From: Cryobacterium arcticum
GTDB lineage: Bacteria > Actinomycetota > Actinomycetes > Actinomycetales > Microbacteriaceae
Assembly: GCF_003185895.1 (NCBI RefSeq)
Contig: NZ_QHLY01000012.1
Span: forward strand, 310,001 to 374,000
DNA length: 64,000 nt
Direction: 5' to 3'
The position numbers were made by a program, and so were the translations under genes. Below the pieces are notes generated by a model. It ran no database searches, had not been told where the DNA came from, and worked only from the letters and a program-made list of their open reading frames with translations. Shown here piece after piece: positions 24,379 to 31,081 of the stretch. Positions within the stretch are counted from its first letter, which is position 1. Each line of letters starts with the position of its first letter.

Positions 24379-25773
24379 ATGTCCAACACCCTGACCGACA
24401 TCGCGTCCAGTGTTATCGACGAACTCTCCGCCGTGCTCTCCAGCGCGCAGATCGTCACCGGAGCGCGCACCGAGAGTAACCGTCGTGACCAGTCAGAGGG
24501 CACCCCGAGCGGCGAGCCGCTGGCTGTACTCTTCCCGGCCAGCACCGAAGAAGTCGCCGCCGTGGTCACCATCGCCGCCGCTCACCGCATCCCGATCGTG
24601 CCGCAGGGCGCCCGCACCGGCCTGGCCGGCGGCGGCAACGCCATCGAGGGCGCGCTTGTGCTCAGCACCACCAAGCTGAAGAAGATCCTGTCGGTGGATG
24701 TCGCCAACCAGACCGCCACCGTGCAGGCCGGCGTGCGCACCATCGCCCTGGCCCGCGCCGCAGAGGCCGTCGACCTGTTCTACCCGCCGGACCCCGGCTC
24801 CTGGCGTGCCTCGACCATCGGCGGCAATGTGGCCACCAACGCCGGCGGCATGCTGTGCGTGAAGTACGGCGTCACCGGCAACTTCGTGCGGCAGCTGACC
24901 GTGGTGCTCGCCGACGGATCGATCGTGCACACCGGCCAGCGCACCATCAAGGGCGTCGCCGGTTACAACCTCACCGCCCTGTTGGTGGGCTCTGAGGGCA
25001 CCCTCGGCATCATCACCGAGATCACCGTGGGCCTGCTGCCCAAGCCTGCCAGCCCATCCGGCGTCTCGGCGACCTTCACCCATCCAGCGGATGCCCTCGC
25101 CGCCGCCAACAGCATCATCGCCGGCGCCCGCCGGCCGAGCGTGCTCGAATTCCTCGATGGCGCCTGCATCGCCGCCATCAACGCCTACGACCCCGCCTCC
25201 ACCCTGCCCGCCGGTGCCGGCGCCCTGCTGCTCGTGCAGTCGGACCAGCTCGGCCAGTCCAGGGAAGACGCCGAGGCCTACGCCGAGGTGCTGCGCGCGA
25301 ACGGCGCCACCGATGTCGCCATCGCCCACGATGCCGAATCCCTCGAACGGTTAATGAGCGCCCGGCGTCTGCTGCACCCCGCGGTGCACTCCGCCCGCGG
25401 CGGCGCGCTCAACGAAGACGTCACGGTGCCGCGCTCCCAGCTCGGTGCCCTGCTCGACGGCCTGGCGGAGATCTCCCGGGAACTCGACGTGCCGATCAGC
25501 ACCGGCGGTCACATCGGCGACGGAAATCTGCACCCGGTGATCGGCTACAACCCGGACGTGCCGGCCGAGATCGACGCGGCCCACGCCGCCTTCGCCCGCG
25601 TGATCGCCCTGGCCATCGCCCTGGGCGGTTCGGCCTCGGGGGAGCACGGCATCGGCGTGCTCAAGCGCGACCACCTCGACGACGAACTCGGCCCGGTGCT
25701 GCGCGACCTGCAGCGCAGGGTCAAGGCGGCGTTCGACCCGCACTCGCTCCTGAACCCCGGAAAGAAGCTCTAA
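24379..25773 (+). CDS. FAD-linked oxidase (glycolate / D-lactate dehydrogenase type)
   Basis: 464 residues from the ATG at 24379, five bases after AGAGG. The FAD_binding_4 domain shows IPIVPQGARTGLAGGGN, NVATNAGGMLCVKYGVTGNFV and LLVGSEGTLGIITE; the C-terminal oxidase domain ends GEHGIGVLKRDHL and DPHSLLNPGKKL, with the catalytic-site histidines in GGHIGDGNLHPVI. It should oxidise a 2-hydroxy acid such as D-lactate or glycolate. No glcE/glcF or iron-sulfur partner adjoins, so it is more like the single-chain D-lactate dehydrogenases. The upstream 206 bases show no clear promoter. Confidence 0.9.
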   Translation: MSNTLTDIASSVIDELSAVLSSAQIVTGARTESNRRDQSEGTPSGEPLAVLFPASTEEVAAVVTIAAAHRIPIVPQGARTGLAGGGNAIEGALVLSTTKLKKILSVDVANQTATVQAGVRTIALARAAEAVDLFYPPDPGSWRASTIGGNVATNAGGMLCVKYGVTGNFVRQLTVVLADGSIVHTGQRTIKGVAGYNLTALLVGSEGTLGIITEITVGLLPKPASPSGVSATFTHPADALAAANSIIAGARRPSVLEFLDGACIAAINAYDPASTLPAGAGALLLVQSDQLGQSREDAEAYAEVLRANGATDVAIAHDAESLERLMSARRLLHPAVHSARGGALNEDVTVPRSQLGALLDGLAEISRELDVPISTGGHIGDGNLHPVIGYNPDVPAEIDAAHAAFARVIALAIALGGSASGEHGIGVLKRDHLDDELGPVLRDLQRRVKAAFDPHSLLNPGKKL

Positions 25774-25808
25774 CTCCCGTTCACGGGTCCCGCCGGTCCC
25801 GACCCATC

Positions 25809-26084
25809 CGCTGGTCGAGCTTGTCGAGACCTCGTGAGTCGGTCTGCTCAACGTCCCCCACGTCCGTCACTGGGTCTCGACAAGCTCGACCAGCGAGGTG
25901 GCGCGTCCCATGGATTCGCTCACCGGGTCTCGGCGAGCTCCCATGCGCTGGTCGAGCCTGTCGAGATCTCGTGAGTCGGTCTGCTCAACGTCCCCCACGC
26001 CCGTCACTGGGTCTCGACGAGCTCGACCAGCGAGTGGCTCGTCCCGCGGATTCGCTCGCCGGGTCTCCTTCGACGGGCTCAGCA
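25809..26084. repeat. Tandem 137-bp repeat with long inverted arms
   Basis: This fills most of the 440-base gap between the flavoprotein and the small repeat protein. In copy 1, the arm CTGGTCGAGCTTGTCGAGAC (25811-25830) is a perfect 20-bp inverse of 25874-25893, extending to 22 bp, with a 43-base spacer. Copy 2 repeats the whole unit exactly 137 bases on (arms 25948-25967 and 26011-26030, 17 of 20 pairing), including the same spacer CTCGTGAGTCGGTCTGCTC. A degraded third arm lies near 26061-26095. No coding sequence in it is credible. It resembles dispersed REP-like palindromes and may also act as a terminator. Confidence 0.85.
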
Positions 26085-26213
26085 CGAGTCGACGAGCTCG
26101 CCCGTGTGGCGGATGCGATGAATTGCGTGGTTAGACTCCCATTCGCGAACCGGGCGTCGTACTATCGCCAGTGGGCGTCAGCCGACGCCAGACAACGGCT
26201 ACGGAGGTTCGCA

Positions 26214-26468
26214 GTGAGCATCAACGATGACGACATCACCACATCCGGTCTGGACCCGAACGAGGGCACGGCCGACGGCGGTGCCAACCCCGAGGGGCAC
26301 GACGGCGGCGCAGACGGTACGGCCGATGCCGGCGAGGGCACCGCAGACGGCGGCGCCAACCCCAAGGGGCACGACGGCGGAGCCGACGGCTCGGCTGCGG
26401 AAGAAGGCGTCGCCGACGGCGGCGCGAACCGCGAAGGGCACGACGGCGGCGCCGACGGATCCGCCTGA
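26214..26468 (+). CDS. Small Asp/Gly/His repeat protein (BatC-like)
   Basis: 84 residues from GTG at 26214, six bases after GGAGG. After a 17-residue acidic leader the protein is three near-copies of about 24 residues, consensus GTADGGANPEGHDGGADG, beginning at residues 18, 42 and 65. It has no Cys, no aromatic residue and no hydrophobic core, so it must be disordered or metal-bound. I recall similar sequences labelled BatC in Actinobacteria, with no known function. Its stop overlaps the start of the JmjC cupin gene by one base (TGATG), so the two are coupled. Each repeat carries one His-Asp pair, which could be a modification site for that oxygenase. Confidence 0.8.
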   Translation: MSINDDDITTSGLDPNEGTADGGANPEGHDGGADGTADAGEGTADGGANPKGHDGGADGSAAEEGVADGGANREGHDGGADGSA

Positions 26469-27709
26469 TGCGGGGCGACGAGCGCGGGTCGGGCGAGCGA
26501 CCCGCGCTCGCGCGCCTACTCGCCATATCGCCGCATACCTTTGCGGCCGAATACTGGGCCGAACGGCCCCTGTTCACCCGGGCGAGCGAGTTGCCCCACA
26601 CCTTCGGTGATCTCTTCTCCGCCGGAGCGGTCGATGAACTCGTCACCCGCCGGGCCCTGCGCACGCCGTTCGTGCGGATGGCCACAGAGGGCGCGGTGCT
26701 GAACGCCGCCCGGTTCACCGCGCCCGGCGGATTCGGCGCCGAGATCGCTGACCAGGTCAGCGCCGACAAGGTGCTCGACGAGTTCGCCGCCGGGGCGACC
26801 CTGGTGCTGCAGGGGCTACATCGCACCTGGACTCCGCTGGCCGAATACACCCGCCAACTCGTGGCCGACCTCGGCCATCCCGCGCAGGTCAACGCCTACA
26901 TCACGCCGGCATCGGCCCGTGGCTTCGACCCGCACTATGACGTGCACGATGTCTTCGTGATCCAGATCGCGGGGGAGAAGCGCTGGCGCATCCACGCCCC
27001 GGTGCACCCCAGCCCGCTCCGCGACCAGCCCTGGGACGAGCACCGCGCCGCCGTCGCCCGGCAGGCCGAGAACACGCCGGAGATCGAGGAGACCTTCAGG
27101 CCCGGCGATGTGCTCTACCTGCCGCGGGGCTGGATCCATTCGGCCACGGCGCTCGGCGGCACCTCCATCCACCTCACCATCGGCGTCGCCGCCCTCACCC
27201 GGCACGATGTGCTGAAAGAGGTCCTGGCCACGGCCGCCCAGCACGAAGGCCTGCGCGCCGCCCTGCCCCTGGGCGTCGACTTCACCGACCCGGCCGTGGT
27301 GGCCGCCCTCGTGGCAGATGCCGTCGACGACCTGGCCCGATTCAGCCGGGACGATCCCGACCAGGCCGGGCAGGTGGCCAGACGGCTGGCCCGCCGGGTG
27401 CGCACCTCGACCCGGCCGGAGCCGATCGCGCCGCTGGCCACGATGGAAGGCGCCGCGGCCCTGCACGAAGCCACCACGGTGAGCCTGCGGCACGGCCTCG
27501 ACGCCCGGATCGGAGACGCCGCCGACGGCCAGGTGGCCCTGGTCCTGCCGGGGAAGACGGTGACCCTGCCCGCCGAGGCAGCGGCCGCGCTCGACGCCGT
27601 GATCGTCGGCGACACCATCCGGGCCGGCGACCTGCCCGGACTCGACTCCGCCTCCTCGCTCGTGGTCGCCCGGCGCCTCGTGCGCGAGGGCGTCCTGGTC
27701 GTTCGGTGA
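26468..27709 (+). CDS. JmjC/cupin_4-type 2-oxoglutarate oxygenase
   Basis: 413 residues. The iron site is HxD in GFDPHYDVHDVFVIQIAGEKRW (His156, Asp158) with the distal His224 in LPRGWIHSA, the arrangement of the ribosomal-oxygenase (YcfD/ROXA-like) JmjC proteins; the lysine or arginine in GEKRWRIH would hold 2-oxoglutarate. A dimerisation helical region and a winged-helix-like C-terminus (to residue 413) also match that family. Known members hydroxylate Arg or His in ribosomal proteins. Here the gene sits between a small repeat protein and a ferredoxin-like protein, overlapping each, so its substrate may be the repeat protein rather than a ribosomal one; that is inference. Confidence 0.88.
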   Translation: MRGDERGSGERPALARLLAISPHTFAAEYWAERPLFTRASELPHTFGDLFSAGAVDELVTRRALRTPFVRMATEGAVLNAARFTAPGGFGAEIADQVSADKVLDEFAAGATLVLQGLHRTWTPLAEYTRQLVADLGHPAQVNAYITPASARGFDPHYDVHDVFVIQIAGEKRWRIHAPVHPSPLRDQPWDEHRAAVARQAENTPEIEETFRPGDVLYLPRGWIHSATALGGTSIHLTIGVAALTRHDVLKEVLATAAQHEGLRAALPLGVDFTDPAVVAALVADAVDDLARFSRDDPDQAGQVARRLARRVRTSTRPEPIAPLATMEGAAALHEATTVSLRHGLDARIGDAADGQVALVLPGKTVTLPAEAAAALDAVIVGDTIRAGDLPGLDSASSLVVARRLVREGVLVVR

Positions 27710-28605
27710 CCACGCCAGCGCCCGGCTGGTTGCCGTGCAGTGACCGGTCGGTGGAGCGCGACGATCCGCTGGCCGGCACCGCCGGGTACGGCGAACGCTG
27801 GTTCCTGGTCGAGATCGACGGGGCCTGGGGAGCGCACGCCTTTCTGCAATCGCAGCTCGACCCCGCCTTGGGCCGTGCCTTGGTCACCCGAATAGAAGGC
27901 GCCGGCATCCGCCCACTCGCCATCCGCCGCACCGGCCGGAAGGCGGACCAGCGCCGCGACCAGACGACGTGGCGTTGGGCGGCTGTCGACTCCAGGGTCG
28001 GTCACGAGTCGGTGCACTGGGGATCTGTCGACGATCCGGCCGACCTGCTTACCGTGCCCCTGGACGGCTCGACCGGAGTGCTGTCGACTGATCCCGTGAT
28101 CTGCGTGTGCACGCACGCCCGGCACGACCAGTGCTGCGCCGTCAAGGGCCGTCCCGTGGTCACGGCACTGGCCAAGGCCTACCCGCGCGCGACCTGGGAG
28201 TGCTCGCACCTGGGCGGTGACAGGTTCGCGGCCACCTTCATCCTCTTTCCGCACGGCCTCTACTACGGGCGGGCGACGGGCGCGGATGCCCCGGGCATCG
28301 TGGACGCGTACCGGAACGGCCGGCTCGAACCGCGCTGGTTCCGCGGCCGCAGCTCACTGCCGAATGTGGTGCAGGCCGCCGCGGCATTCGCGCGCGCGGA
28401 CCGCGGCGACAACCGGATCACCGCATTCGAATATCTGGCCTGGACCGAGGACGGGGGAGTGCACGAGGTGGACTTCAACCACGACGGCGAGCACCTCACC
28501 GTACGGCTGGGTGAGACCCTCTCGGCTCCGCTGCTGAGCACCTGCGCGGCCGTCACCGCACGCCCGGTGCGGGAGTTCGAATTGCTCGCCATCGACGTGA
28601 GGTAG
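27706..28605 (+). CDS. Sucrase/ferredoxin-like protein
   Basis: 299 residues from GTG overlapping the previous stop by four bases. It has the Suc_Fer-like signatures VICVCTHARHDQCCAVKGRP (Cys133, 135, 143, 144) and WECSHLGGDRFAATFILFPHGLYYG (Cys166), typical of thioredoxin-fold ferredoxin-like proteins; the cysteines could hold a 2Fe-2S cluster. The name derives from an old sucrase annotation and no sucrase activity is expected. Co-translation with a JmjC oxygenase suggests a redox or iron-supply role for it. It ends the operon; the next gene is behind its own promoter. Confidence 0.85.
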   Translation: MTTPAPGWLPCSDRSVERDDPLAGTAGYGERWFLVEIDGAWGAHAFLQSQLDPALGRALVTRIEGAGIRPLAIRRTGRKADQRRDQTTWRWAAVDSRVGHESVHWGSVDDPADLLTVPLDGSTGVLSTDPVICVCTHARHDQCCAVKGRPVVTALAKAYPRATWECSHLGGDRFAATFILFPHGLYYGRATGADAPGIVDAYRNGRLEPRWFRGRSSLPNVVQAAAAFARADRGDNRITAFEYLAWTEDGGVHEVDFNHDGEHLTVRLGETLSAPLLSTCAAVTARPVREFELLAIDVR

Positions 28606-28640
28606 ACCTGCGGACAGCACCCCCAACTGGAGGTGAATCA

Positions 28641-28654
28641 GGGACTTAGGTCCC
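28641..28654. promoter_or_regulatory. DosR/DevR-like box upstream of pyruvate formate-lyase
   Basis: GGGACTTAGGTCCC matches 13 of 14 core positions of the mycobacterial DosR box (GGGACTWWAGTCCC). It lies 160 bases before the pflB start, within the 208-base leader, which otherwise shows an AAGGAGAG ribosome site at 28797-28804. The box suggests induction by hypoxia through a NarL-type regulator. The regulator itself cannot be identified from this window. Confidence 0.65.
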
Positions 28655-28813
28655 GGTTCCGGGAGTATGCAAAAGAGTAGTGTTCAAAACAGAGGGCGAA
28701 CCACCGGCGCCGACGTAGTAGCTGGTACCTCGTGGTCTGCTCTTGTGGCCTGCTGTTGGGATCAACACTCAGTCAGCGGGAAAGCCTCGATCCTACAAGG
28801 AGAGCAAATCCAT

Positions 28814-31081
28814 ATGACCGTAACAGATGGCATCCGAAGCGACCAGCGCGGTCTCGCAGAACCCGGCCAGGCAGAATTCGTTGCCGGCCCGTGGCAAGAC
28901 TCGATCAACCTGCGCGACTTCATCCAGCGCAACTACACGCCGTACACCGGCGACGCAAGCTTCCTCGAAGGCGCCACCGAGCGCACCACAGGCATTTGGG
29001 CCAAGCTGTCCGCGATGTTCCCGGTCGAGCGCGAGAAGGGCGTCTATGACATCGACGCCACGACGCCCTCGTCCATCACCGCGCACAAGCCCGGCTACAT
29101 CGACAAGGACAACGAGGTCATCGTCGGCCTCCAGACCGACGCGCCCCTGAAGCGCGCGATCATGCCCTTCGGTGGCTGGCGTATGGTCGCCACCTCGCTC
29201 GAGACCTACGGTTACCCGGTCTCGCCCGAGCTGGAGACGATCTTCACCGACTACCGCAAGACCCACAACACGGCCGTGTTCGACGTCTACCCTCCCGGGG
29301 TCCGCCGCGCACGCAGCAGCCACCTGATCACGGGTCTGCCGGATGCCTACGGCCGCGGCCGTATCATCGGCGACTACCGTCGCGTGGCCCTGTACGGCAT
29401 CGATGCACTCGTCGCCGGCAAGAAGAACGACCGCGCCGAGCTGGACATGGAGCCCTCGACCGAGGACATCATCCGTGCCCGCGAGGAGAACTCGGAGCAG
29501 ATCCGGGCCCTCAAGGAACTCGCCCAGATGGCAGCCAGCTACGGCTCCGACATCACCAAGCCGGCCACCACCGCCCGCGAAGCCGTGCAGTGGCTGTACT
29601 TCGCCTACCTCGGTGCCGTCAAGGAGCAGAACGGTGCAGCAATGTCGTTCGGCCGCAACGCGGCCTTCCTCGACGCCTTCATCGAGCGCGACCTCAAGGC
29701 CGGCACGCTGACCGAGTCCGGTGCGCAGGAGCTCATCGATGACCTGGTCATCAAGCTGCGCATCGTACGCTTCCTCCGCACCCCGGAGTACGACGAGATC
29801 TTCGCCGGCGACCCCACCTGGGTCACCGAGTCGCTCGCCGGCATCGGTGAAGACGGCCGCCCGCTGGTCACCAAGACCGCGTTCCGCTTCCTGCAGACCC
29901 TCTACAACGTGGGCCCCGCACCCGAGCCGAACCTGACCGTGCTGTGGAGCGACAAGCTGCCCGAGGGCTTCAAGCGCTTCTGCGCCCAGGTCTCGATCGA
30001 CACGTCGGCCATCCAGTACGAGTCCGACGACCTGATCCGCAACGAGATGGGTGACGACGCCGCGATCGCATGTTGCGTCTCCCCGATGCGGGTCGGCAAG
30101 CAGATGCAGTTCTTCGGAGCTCGCGTCAACGCCGTCAAGGCGCTCTTGTACTCCATCAACGGTGGCAAGGACGAGGTGTCCGGCAAGCAGATCGCCCCGG
30201 CCACCGCGCCGAACACCGACGAGATCCTCGACTACGAGACCGTGTTCCCGGCCTACCTCGAGACCCTCGAATGGCTTGCTGAGACCTACGTCACCGCGCT
30301 CAACTGCATCCACTACATGCACGACAAGTACGCGTACGAGCGCCTCGAAATGGCACTGCATGACAAGGAAATCATCCGCACCCTGGCCTGCGGCATCGCC
30401 GGCCTGAGCGTGGTTGCCGACTCGCTGTCCGCCATCAAGTACGCCACGGTCCGTCCGGTGCGCGACGAGACCGGCCTGGTTGTCGACTACACCGTCGAGG
30501 GCGAATTCCCCACCTTCGGCAACGACGACGACCGCGTCGACGTCATTGCGGTCGACGTCATGGAACGCTTCATGACCATGATCCGCAAGCACCCGACCTA
30601 CCGCGACGCGATCCACACCCAGTCGATCCTGACGATCACGTCCAACGTGGTCTACGGCAAGGCCACCGGCAACACGCCCGATGGTCGCCGCAAGGGTGAG
30701 CCGTTCGCACCGGGTGCCAACCCGATGAACGGCCGCGACACGCACGGCATGCTCGCGTCGGCACTCAGCGTCGCGAAGCTCCCGTACAGTGAAGCGCAGG
30801 ACGGCATCTCGCTGACCAACACGGTCGTTCCGAGCGGCCTGGGTCACACCAAGGACGAGCAGATCACCAGTCTGGTCGGCCTGCTCGACGCGTTCACGTC
30901 GGCGACGGGTTACCACCTGAACGTCAACGTGCTCAACAAGGAAACCCTTGAAGACGCCATGCTTCACCCGGAGAACTACCCGCAGCTGACGATTCGCGTC
31001 TCCGGCTACGCGGTGAACTTCGTTCGCCTCACCCGCGAGCAGCAGATGGATGTCATCAGCCGCACGTTCCACTCGCACTAA
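28814..31081 (+). CDS. pflB: Pyruvate formate-lyase (formate acetyltransferase)
   Basis: 755 residues, close to the 760 of the E. coli enzyme, from the ATG at 28814. Both active-site features are intact: the Cys-Cys pair (420-421) in [13 protein letters not shown] and the glycyl-radical site Gly731 in RVSGYAVNF near the C-terminus. It splits pyruvate with CoA to acetyl-CoA and formate and works only without oxygen. Codons are the strongly biased, C-ending type, suggesting high expression. The activase gene follows after 46 bases. Presence in an actinobacterium of generally aerobic relatives, behind a DosR-like box, indicates facultative fermentation. Confidence 0.96.

Follow-up and report, generated by a model that had tools for sequence, protein, structure and literature searches.

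The locus described here occupies positions 26214-28605 of a 64,000-nucleotide stretch of Cryobacterium arcticum DNA (the window) and, by reading of the sequence, holds one overlapping operon encoding an 84-residue repeat peptide, a JmjC oxygenase and a sucrase/ferredoxin-like (Suc_Fer) protein (Table 1). The stop codon of the peptide gene (TGA, 26466-26468) and the JmjC start codon (ATG at 26468) overlap by one base, and the Suc_Fer start codon (GTG, 27706) overlaps the JmjC stop codon (27707-27709) by four. The three overlapping genes and the intact HxD...H motif of the JmjC protein, as given in an initial annotation of this DNA, were borne out by the sequence and by Pfam assignments (JmjC_2, PF08007, E 9.6e-29; Suc_Fer-like, PF06999, E 7.9e-19, the domain of Apd1-type proteins). 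The JmjC protein is the sole PF08007 match in the window's genome. No Rfam match was found at 25700-28900, and a search for promoter and terminator consensus sequences at the locus returned none, a result judged uninformative. Boxes for IdeR/DtxR, Zur, PerR/FurA, OxyR, NrdR, LexA, CRP and ArgR were not enriched in 102 upstream stretches relative to shuffles, as judged by simple scoring with consensus strings, and regulation by iron, zinc or stress was dropped as a candidate on this basis.

Table 1. Features of the peptide-JmjC-Suc_Fer locus (window coordinates).
Feature	Position	Strand	Basis
Shine-Dalgarno-like GGAGG ahead of peptide gene	26203..26207	+	read directly
Peptide gene, 84 aa, GTG start, TGA stop; candidate precursor/substrate	26214..26468	+	sequence, dN/dS
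N-terminal 16 residues MSINDDDITTSGLDPN, candidate leader	26214..26261	+	motif recurrence in other peptides
Repeat 1 + linker, 24 residues	26262..26333	+	sequence reading
Repeat 2 + linker, 23 residues	26334..26402	+	sequence reading
Repeat 3, 21 residues	26403..26465	+	sequence reading
JmjC 2-oxoglutarate oxygenase, 413 aa, NO66/MINA-like	26468..27709	+	PF08007; NO66 top by profile and fold
Arg119 codon, candidate Asp-binding residue	26822..26824	+	119/119 peptide-linked JmjC, 16/31 others
H156-x-D158 codons, iron ligands	26933..26941	+	149/149 JmjC rows counted
H224 codon, third iron ligand	27137..27139	+	149/149 rows counted
Gly239 codon, aligned with NO66 Ser421 (holds substrate His)	27182..27184	+	alignment
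C-terminal winged-helix, RRE-like domain, residues 326-413	27443..27706	+	model mean pLDDT 89.7, fold matches
Suc_Fer-like (Apd1-type) thioredoxin-like ferredoxin protein, 299 aa	27706..28605	+	PF06999; weak 1m2b match
Predicted cluster region: C135, C143, C144, H168, residue 172	28108..28221	+	column counts, 112 rows

Repeat peptide and its association with the oxygenase

The peptide consists of a 16-residue N-terminal stretch and three copies of the unit EG(T/V)ADGGAN-x-x-GHDGGADG(S/T)A; the three copies described previously were confirmed, but the unit is 21 residues long rather than 24, with copies spaced 24 and 23 residues apart. The chain is repetitive, Asp/Gly-rich and probably disordered. 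It matched no Pfam or NCBIfam family, and six other peptides of the type gave nothing above cut-off in these databases. Among the papers searched, DGGADGG, PADGGA, LDDDDIT and DGGADGT had no match, and ADGGADG had one, a pig-breeding paper. The peptide is under purifying selection: in comparisons of 11 members of the genus that share this 84-residue layout, median dN/dS was 0.095 (range 0.011-0.205; 54 of 55 pairs, the single pair with dS <0.1 being left out).

Co-occurrence across Actinobacteria, proposed with the initial annotation as a check, was strongly positive for the peptide and JmjC by genus, class and reverse searches. Within the genus, the 7 of 37 genomes with the peptide were those with the JmjC gene. 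For the class sample, 89 loci were examined, which form part of the JmjC matches listed, several split or weak matches lying outside. Among these listed matches, a DGG-type peptide lay no more than 250 nt upstream of JmjC at 51 of the 52 loci scoring 450 bits or more, at 7 of 12 scoring 300-450 bits and at 0 of 25 scoring under 300 bits, counts that omit four strong matches (three with the peptide, in G053, G040 and G037, and one without, locus L038 of G105). An adjacent Suc_Fer gene was present in the same bands, again among the matches listed, at 43/52, 11/12 and 0/25 loci. The 5 mid-band loci lacking a DGG peptide carried other Asp-rich ORFs upstream, and two loci with strong JmjC matches (L038 and L110) had nothing upstream but an acidic ORF that looks unrelated, and Suc_Fer did not adjoin the oxygenase gene in either. 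In the reverse direction, a mycobacterial peptide query, which is insensitive to more distant peptide types, matched 24 of 394 genomes, and a JmjC gene adjoined the peptide gene in all 24. Peptide and oxygenase accordingly hold up as a dedicated pair by genus co-presence, by the strong loci among the matches listed and by the reverse search.

The arrangement recurs across the phylum, including relatives outside the class with cores such as DADGTDGDATD, and this recurrence together with the low dN/dS places the peptide cassette beyond chance. Many actinobacteria encode a short Asp-rich repeat peptide beside an NO66-related oxygenase, usually with an iron-sulfur protein. Since JmjC matches of 300 bits or more make up 64 of the 89 class-sample loci examined, and relatives outside the class carry the cassette too, the role of its product may lie in general physiology.

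Neighboring genes were clustered from six-frame ORFs at the 89 loci, which represent 42 lineages, with flanks of median 1.6 kb upstream and 2.0 kb downstream. Suc_Fer was recovered in 78 loci of 36 lineages, and apart from it no neighbor gene in these flanks occurred in more than 3 of the 42 lineages. One further cluster, MsrA-like by reading, occurred in 3 lineages; two opposite-strand clusters were taken as reverse-frame shadows of Suc_Fer because of their position. An earlier clustering with crude gene calling (49 loci) had recovered Suc_Fer at only some of the loci having it. A ribosomal precursor peptide gene beside a modifying enzyme is the arrangement of RiPP systems, and the peptide would be the substrate here; unlike in many RiPP clusters, no recurrent transporter or protease gene was found beside the cassette in the 89 loci of 42 lineages.

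Oxygenase and iron-sulfur protein

NO66 was the best match to the JmjC protein by profile (E about 1e-38) and by fold (Z 24.1, rmsd 11.1 over 361, aligned on model residues 11-413). The protein has the features of the ROX enzymes, namely HxD...H in a JmjC fold and a JmjC domain, middle helical region and winged-helix C-terminus, and its iron triad, H156-x-D158...H224, is intact (Table 1). A quick tree was built from 150 JmjC rows, repeat copies and rows of <300 residues being left out; its branches are long and 5 changes are required to account for the peptide-linked enzymes, so these are not called a clade. Locus L110 was labeled DxD by regular expression and is therefore counted among the 119 peptide-linked enzymes, though its ORF looks unrelated.

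The Tyr/Ser pair that holds the substrate imidazole in NO66 and MINA is incomplete in these enzymes: in the alignment, NO66 Tyr328 corresponds to Tyr144, kept in 119/119, and the position of NO66 Ser421, which hydrogen-bonds to the substrate His, is Gly239, likewise in 119/119. The Ser-to-Gly change is also found in 27 of 31 JmjC proteins without such a peptide, and therefore argues against His as the target but not by itself for Asp. Arg119, present in all peptide-linked enzymes versus about half of the others (Table 1), may serve as an Asp-binding residue. In the alignment it is four residues away from NO66 L299, the site that, by the title of the structure entry, carries a cysteine substitution in a complex with substrate.

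Residues 326-413 are predicted to form a winged helix. Compared alone, this domain best matched the winged helices of ribosomal oxygenases (MINA, Z 12.0, rmsd 2.0 over 84). Several RRE structures matched at Z about 5-7.5 (PqqD, Z 7.5; TbiB1, Z 6.5; PbtF RRE, Z 6.3), all <8 and so in the range where a common arrangement alone may explain a match, and proteins without an RRE label scored equally (8hkr methyltransferase, Z 7.5; GdmN, Z 6.8). The modeled C-terminal domain may resemble RiPP recognition elements, and RRE-like folds fused to PF08007 domains are reported in section 6 of PMC12710340.

The Suc_Fer protein gave a weak match to the [2Fe-2S] ferredoxin 1m2b (E 0.0019). Columns C135, C143, C144 and H168 were each constant in 112/112 rows, and residue 172 was Asp in 107, Cys in 4 and His in 1; from the HxxxH spacing, we take this column to be that of the second His ligand of Apd1. 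In common with the Apd1-type [2Fe-2S] proteins, it has PF06999 and resembles thioredoxin-like [2Fe-2S] ferredoxins, weakly, by profile; it differs at one of the two His ligand positions reported for Apd1, which appears to be Asp in those 107 of 112 rows. Suc_Fer is coupled more loosely to the cassette than peptide and JmjC are to each other: 10 loci without an adjacent copy were checked (L036 and L116, on short contigs, being outside this set), of which 7 have Suc_Fer at another place in the genome; no match was obtained for the other 3, whose genomes keep peptide and JmjC.

Candidate target residue and proposed reaction

Residue and motif counts were drawn from loci L017-L151, separate from the phylum sample; peptide start codons were picked by score, the core was defined as residue 15 onward, and DGG and DxD labels were assigned by regular expression (L149 is labeled DGG though mostly DxD). 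Asp, Gly and Ala were present in all 99 unique cores, whereas His was absent from 22 (12/89 DGG-type, 10/10 DxD-type), so that Asp and not His is constant. The initial annotation had proposed a hydroxylated peptide modified on its three His-Asp sites; the RiPP-like reading gains from the RRE-like C-terminal domain, but the choice of His-Asp as main target was rejected, because His is inconstant and the His-holding Ser of NO66 is lost, and is probably wrong by these patterns. We infer that Asp suits the role of target better.

Judging from the sequence patterns, the aspartates of the peptide may be what the oxygenase oxidizes, and we favor, at a probability of roughly 0.58, a self-contained RiPP-like cassette in which the NO66-type JmjC enzyme oxidizes the repeated Asp, most likely by C-beta hydroxylation. 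A small gene would supply the repetitive Asp/Gly-rich peptide. To bind it, JmjC would probably use its C-terminal winged-helix (RRE-like) domain, with the acidic N-terminal stretch (L/I-x-D-D-D-I-T-T type) as a putative further binding site in many lineages. With Fe(II), O2 and 2-oxoglutarate, the repeated Asp would then be oxidized one after another, the most likely product being beta-hydroxyaspartate. Suc_Fer, probably with a thioredoxin-like iron-sulfur cluster, would be an accessory, perhaps keeping the oxygenase iron reduced. A strict motif of the type D-[DES]-[DENS]-[IM]-x-[TS] was found in 51/89 DGG-type and 10/10 DxD-type unique peptides and a loose leader-like motif in 63/89 and 9/10; since 26/89 DGG peptides are without even the loose motif, the leader idea is not general. 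FIH oxidizes aspartyl residues (PMC9994133); the same source describes MINA and NO66 as narrow His hydroxylases, which counts against Asp.

That the His of each GHDGG site is hydroxylated, as NO66 and MINA do on ribosomal His, would agree with the activity of these closest solved relatives, with HD being present in 71/89 DGG peptides and with all three repeat His being invariant among the 11 genus members. His is common in the peptides even if not constant, as 182 of 745 DGG motifs have His just before them. HD is nevertheless wholly absent from 18/89 DGG peptides; some DGG-type and all DxD-type cores lack His although the enzymes of both groups keep the same triad, and the Ser that would hold His has been replaced in all 119 peptide-linked enzymes, which makes His an improbable target. 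Even more doubtful is the reading in which JmjC, as a ribosomal oxygenase, modifies a ribosomal protein and the peptide serves as a regulator or unmodified partner, such as an acidic iron-loading or inhibitory peptide. The ROX architecture and the single PF08007 match in the genome speak for it, but part of the genus genomes lack the pair, unlike what would be expected of a housekeeping ribosome modifier, and the repeat number, which differs between loci (e.g., L048 vs L050), fits a multi-site substrate better than a regulator.

A different oxidation of the peptide's Asp/Gly, be it backbone C-alpha hydroxylation with cleavage, desaturation, decarboxylation or a crosslink, is unlikely, though better placed than either of these. 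Iron/2OG enzymes in RiPP pathways go beyond hydroxylation, a ketoglutarate-dependent dioxygenase reportedly performing macrocyclization according to the title of a JACS paper (10.1021/jacs.5c07332), and Gly is as universal in the cores as Asp. Oxidative peptide backbone cleavage is described for an HEXXH enzyme (PMC12636437), and FIH is able to desaturate (PMC9994133). The closest-fold JmjC enzymes, NO66, MINA and YcfD, are however C-3 hydroxylases (PMC9994133), and the common crosslink partners are missing, as Cys, Phe, Trp and Tyr occur in 0/99 cores.

Relation to known systems

A broader and more tentative proposal, held at less than even odds, is that the cassettes form a phylum-wide unrecognized class in which an NO66-like JmjC enzyme with its own RRE makes a ribosomally templated poly-(beta-hydroxyaspartate), the product being a stand-alone cytosolic metal-binding polymer and not a secreted antibiotic. 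The cytosolic metal-binding poly-(hydroxy)Asp product is a guess. If the proposal holds, it would point to kinship between a peptide-recognition element and the winged helix found in human ribosomal oxygenases. With a candidate substrate encoded beside JmjC, the target of a bacterial NO66-like oxygenase becomes directly testable.

Human NO66 (RIOX1) and MINA53 (RIOX2), the best profile and fold matches, resemble the window JmjC in HxD...H and the C-terminal winged helix; the window enzyme differs in sitting beside a repeat peptide, in Gly239 for Ser421 and in the Arg119 common to peptide-linked enzymes. We know of no ribosomal substrate of a JmjC enzyme of the window type. E. coli YcfD (RoxA), also bacterial, shares the PF08007 JmjC domain and winged helix (Z about 18) but is farther by profile (E about 4e-11, vs the value above for NO66). 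YcfD is a uL16 arginyl hydroxylase, its known substrate being ribosomal and not an adjacent peptide.

The cassette bears on the kinship of the ribosomal-oxygenase winged helix and RREs, touched on in PMC12710340, section 6. The JmjC-RRE fusions of the RRE-Finder authors, compared by description only, likewise combine PF08007 with RRE-like folds, with bacterial homologues in RiPP-like settings; for none of them is a precursor, substrate or Suc_Fer gene described in that section. BipG, a JmjC ornithine hydroxylase of the biphenomycin pathway (PMC12707348), is also a JmjC enzyme of a RiPP pathway, again compared by description only. Its cluster contains MFS transporter, radical SAM, MNIO and metallopeptidase genes, whereas the cassette described here consists of three genes, with a poly-Asp repeat peptide and Suc_Fer.

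The three genes and their conservation

The arrangement proposed in the initial annotation, an Asp/Gly repeat peptide gene followed by a JmjC oxygenase gene and a ferredoxin-like Suc_Fer gene, was borne out by start and stop coordinates. The peptide opens with MSINDDDITTSGLDPN and continues with EG(T/V)ADGGAN-x-x-GHDGGADG(S/T)A in three copies, spaced 24 and 23 residues apart; it matched no Pfam family, and six relatives likewise gave no family above cut-off. A GlcD-like FAD oxidase lies upstream and a pyruvate formate-lyase downstream.

Features of the cassette and its upstream region (positions within the window)
Feature	Start	End	Strand	Remarks
23-bp repeat GGTCTCGACAAGCTCGACCAGCG	25809	26032	both orientations	upstream of peptide gene; 161 genome copies at ≤1 mismatch, reversed control 0
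Peptide gene	26214 (GTG)	TGA 26466-26468	+	GGAGG ahead of start
JmjC gene	26468 (ATG)	27709	+	start is last base of peptide stop; Pfam JmjC_2
Suc_Fer gene	27706 (GTG)	28605	+	Pfam Suc_Fer-like

The cassette is a genuine conserved unit. The expected co-occurrence of its families was found within the genus, where the peptide is present in 7/37 genomes and JmjC, among the matches listed, in the same 7 only. Outside the genus, the peptide search matched three genomes, of which G053 is genuine and has the cassette; weak matches in G039 and G043 (E 0.009 and 0.003), one containing a stop codon and the other sitting inside a 1392-codon frame, were not counted. JmjC was detected at E ≤ 1e-20 in 28/120 genomes, and a class-wide profile built from 31 JmjC sequences found a relative in 129/394. 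Neighborhoods were counted at 89 class loci, among the matches listed by the profile search, and a peptide was counted if of DGG-repeat type and ≤250 nt upstream of JmjC. At ≥450 bits, 51/52 loci had the peptide and 43/52 an adjacent Suc_Fer; at 300-450 bits, the figures were 7/12 and 11/12, with other Asp-rich ORFs seen on inspection at the remaining five, and below 300 bits both were 0/25. The reverse search, with a mycobacterial peptide as query, matched 24/394 genomes, and coordinates placed JmjC beside the peptide in all 24, every one of which was also among the genomes found by the JmjC profile.

In the phylum sample, JmjC was present at E ≤ 1e-40 in 28/198 genomes, and 24 loci were inspected (22 scoring >270 bits; L160 and L176 are repeats of earlier-seen genes). 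An Asp-rich repeat ORF lies just upstream of JmjC at 19 of the 22; most of these ORFs begin like LxDEDIxTV, and 17 of the 19 loci have a same-strand Suc_Fer match (exceptions L162 and L169). At L178 and L179 (one gene), JmjC begins too near the sequence end for the upstream ORF to be judged, and two weaker loci, L171 and L176, have neither Asp-rich repeat ORF nor Suc_Fer. The upstream ORF differs at L175 (ITDNDIT start, two-copy repeat PTEDDENLDAPGEHSQDTGDE, no Suc_Fer match), where JmjC is more distant. The peptide is under strong purifying selection (median dN/dS 0.095 for 54 pairs of 11 sequences, a value that repeat homogenization could depress). The JmjC match is broken into two in G383 (L121) and begins only at residue 61 in G030 (L028), reflecting decay or sequencing errors.

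Candidate target residue and active site

The 99 unique peptides whose composition was determined come from L017-L151 and comprise 89 of DGG and 10 of DxD type by regular expression; residue 15 onward is taken as the core. Asp, Gly and Ala occur in 99/99 cores and Cys, Phe, Trp and Tyr in 0/99. The His-Asp target of the initial annotation was not sustained, as His is missing from 12/89 DGG-type and 10/10 DxD-type cores. GHDGG is swapped for GVQDGG or GVSDGG in some lineages, and at L098, L102, L105 and L111 the long unit is lost and runs of ADGG are found instead. Of the two, Asp and not His is constant, and we favor it as the candidate target. Among Agreia peptides, L048 and L049 have three repeat units versus two in L050, though all are close relatives; this whole-unit difference fits a multi-site substrate.

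The iron-ligand triad H156, D158 and H224 is present in 149/149 JmjC rows, covering both peptide types. With NO66 numbering set via the L299C/C300S variant in the title of 4ccn, NO66 Tyr328 aligns with Tyr144 and NO66 Ser421 with Gly239. According to PMC9994133, both NO66 residues are part of a hydrogen-bond network to the substrate His, and in simulations the Asn side chain was too short for reaching the NO66 Ser. Gly239 occurs in 119/119 peptide-linked enzymes and also in 27/31 others, so the loss of Ser speaks against His and not, alone, for Asp. Arg119 is more specific to peptide-linked enzymes (119/119 versus 16/31 others); aligned with NO66 A303, four residues off L299, it could bind the Asp carboxylate.

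Proposed mechanism and accessory gene

We favor a RiPP-like cassette in which the peptide is modified by the JmjC enzyme. The C-terminal domain of the enzyme would serve to read the peptide, whose successive Asp residues the enzyme would then oxidize, probably at C-beta. FIH, also a JmjC enzyme, is reported to oxidize aspartyl residues (PMC9994133), and biphenomycin biosynthesis to include a JmjC ornithine hydroxylase (PMC12707348).

The full JmjC model (AlphaFold2, 15-row alignment, mean pLDDT 74.6) matched NO66 best (Z 24.1, rmsd 11.1 over 361), then MINA (Z 22.4) and YcfD (Z 18.3). The C-terminal 88 residues, modeled alone (pLDDT 89.7), matched MINA (Z 12.0, rmsd 2.0 over 84) better than NO66 (Z 10.5), followed by PqqD (Z 7.5, rmsd 2.6 over 81), TbiB1 with leader peptide (Z 6.5), the PbtF recognition element (Z 6.3) and, more weakly, MibB, McbBCD and heterocyclases such as TruD. 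Counting against identity as a RiPP recognition element (RRE) are proteins without that label in the same range (methyltransferase 8hkr, Z 7.5; carbamoyltransferase GdmN, Z 6.8) and the tool's warning that matches at Z <8 may reflect merely a common arrangement. RRE-like folds fused to PF08007 domains, with bacterial homologues in RiPP-like contexts, are described independently in PMC12710340. The cassette's parts are of known kinds; we take their combination to be a RiPP-like class joining a JmjC enzyme with RRE-like domain to an Asp-repeat peptide, and it was not found described in a literature search with most subscription papers outside its reach.

Suc_Fer residues C135, C143, C144 and H168 are each present in 112/112 rows. 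Residue 172, which we take to be the second His position by HxxxH spacing, is Asp in 107 rows, with Cys at four of the others and His at the last, an exchange consistent with a ligand role there. A 2Cys2His site is reported for yeast Apd1 (PMC11126956). Suc_Fer is adjacent at 80/90 DGG and 26/29 DxD loci; of 10 loci without it that were checked, 7 had a match elsewhere in the genome and 3 lay in genomes without one, and the gene is thus accessory.

The surroundings of 89 peptide-linked loci, which fall into 42 lineages when JmjC is grouped at 65% identity, were surveyed as six-frame ORFs over a median of 1.6 kb upstream and 2.0 kb downstream. Suc_Fer is found again in 36/42 lineages and no other gene in >3/42. 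The lack of a recurring exporter or protease, together with patchy presence within the genus, suggests an optional, probably intracellular function. Our guess is that poly-(hydroxy)Asp would bind hard metal ions; metal-regulator boxes, sought as consensus strings in 102 upstream stretches versus shuffles, gave no support for a metal role.

Other JmjC genes with upstream ORFs

Very short ORFs lie just upstream of distant JmjC genes at L126, L131, L132, L135, L138 and L142 and, as a second type, at L144, L145, L147, L148 and L151; many end ...DGTDSSSDFI or carry SDGSDG-like tails. Possibly these are precursors of further JmjC-modified peptides. JmjC relatives at L038 (G105) and L110 (G382) are without DGG repeat peptide or adjacent Suc_Fer and follow a different acidic ORF ending DDPEL(A/S)GADL-x-EDQ...GPT(I/V)EPGA. 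On a Streptomyces clavuligerus plasmid (L152), a 35%-identical JmjC annotated 'cupin domain-containing protein' is preceded by an annotated Asp-Pro-rich 48-aa hypothetical protein (L152:6832-6978); an ABC transporter and a peptidase of family S9 are encoded close by.
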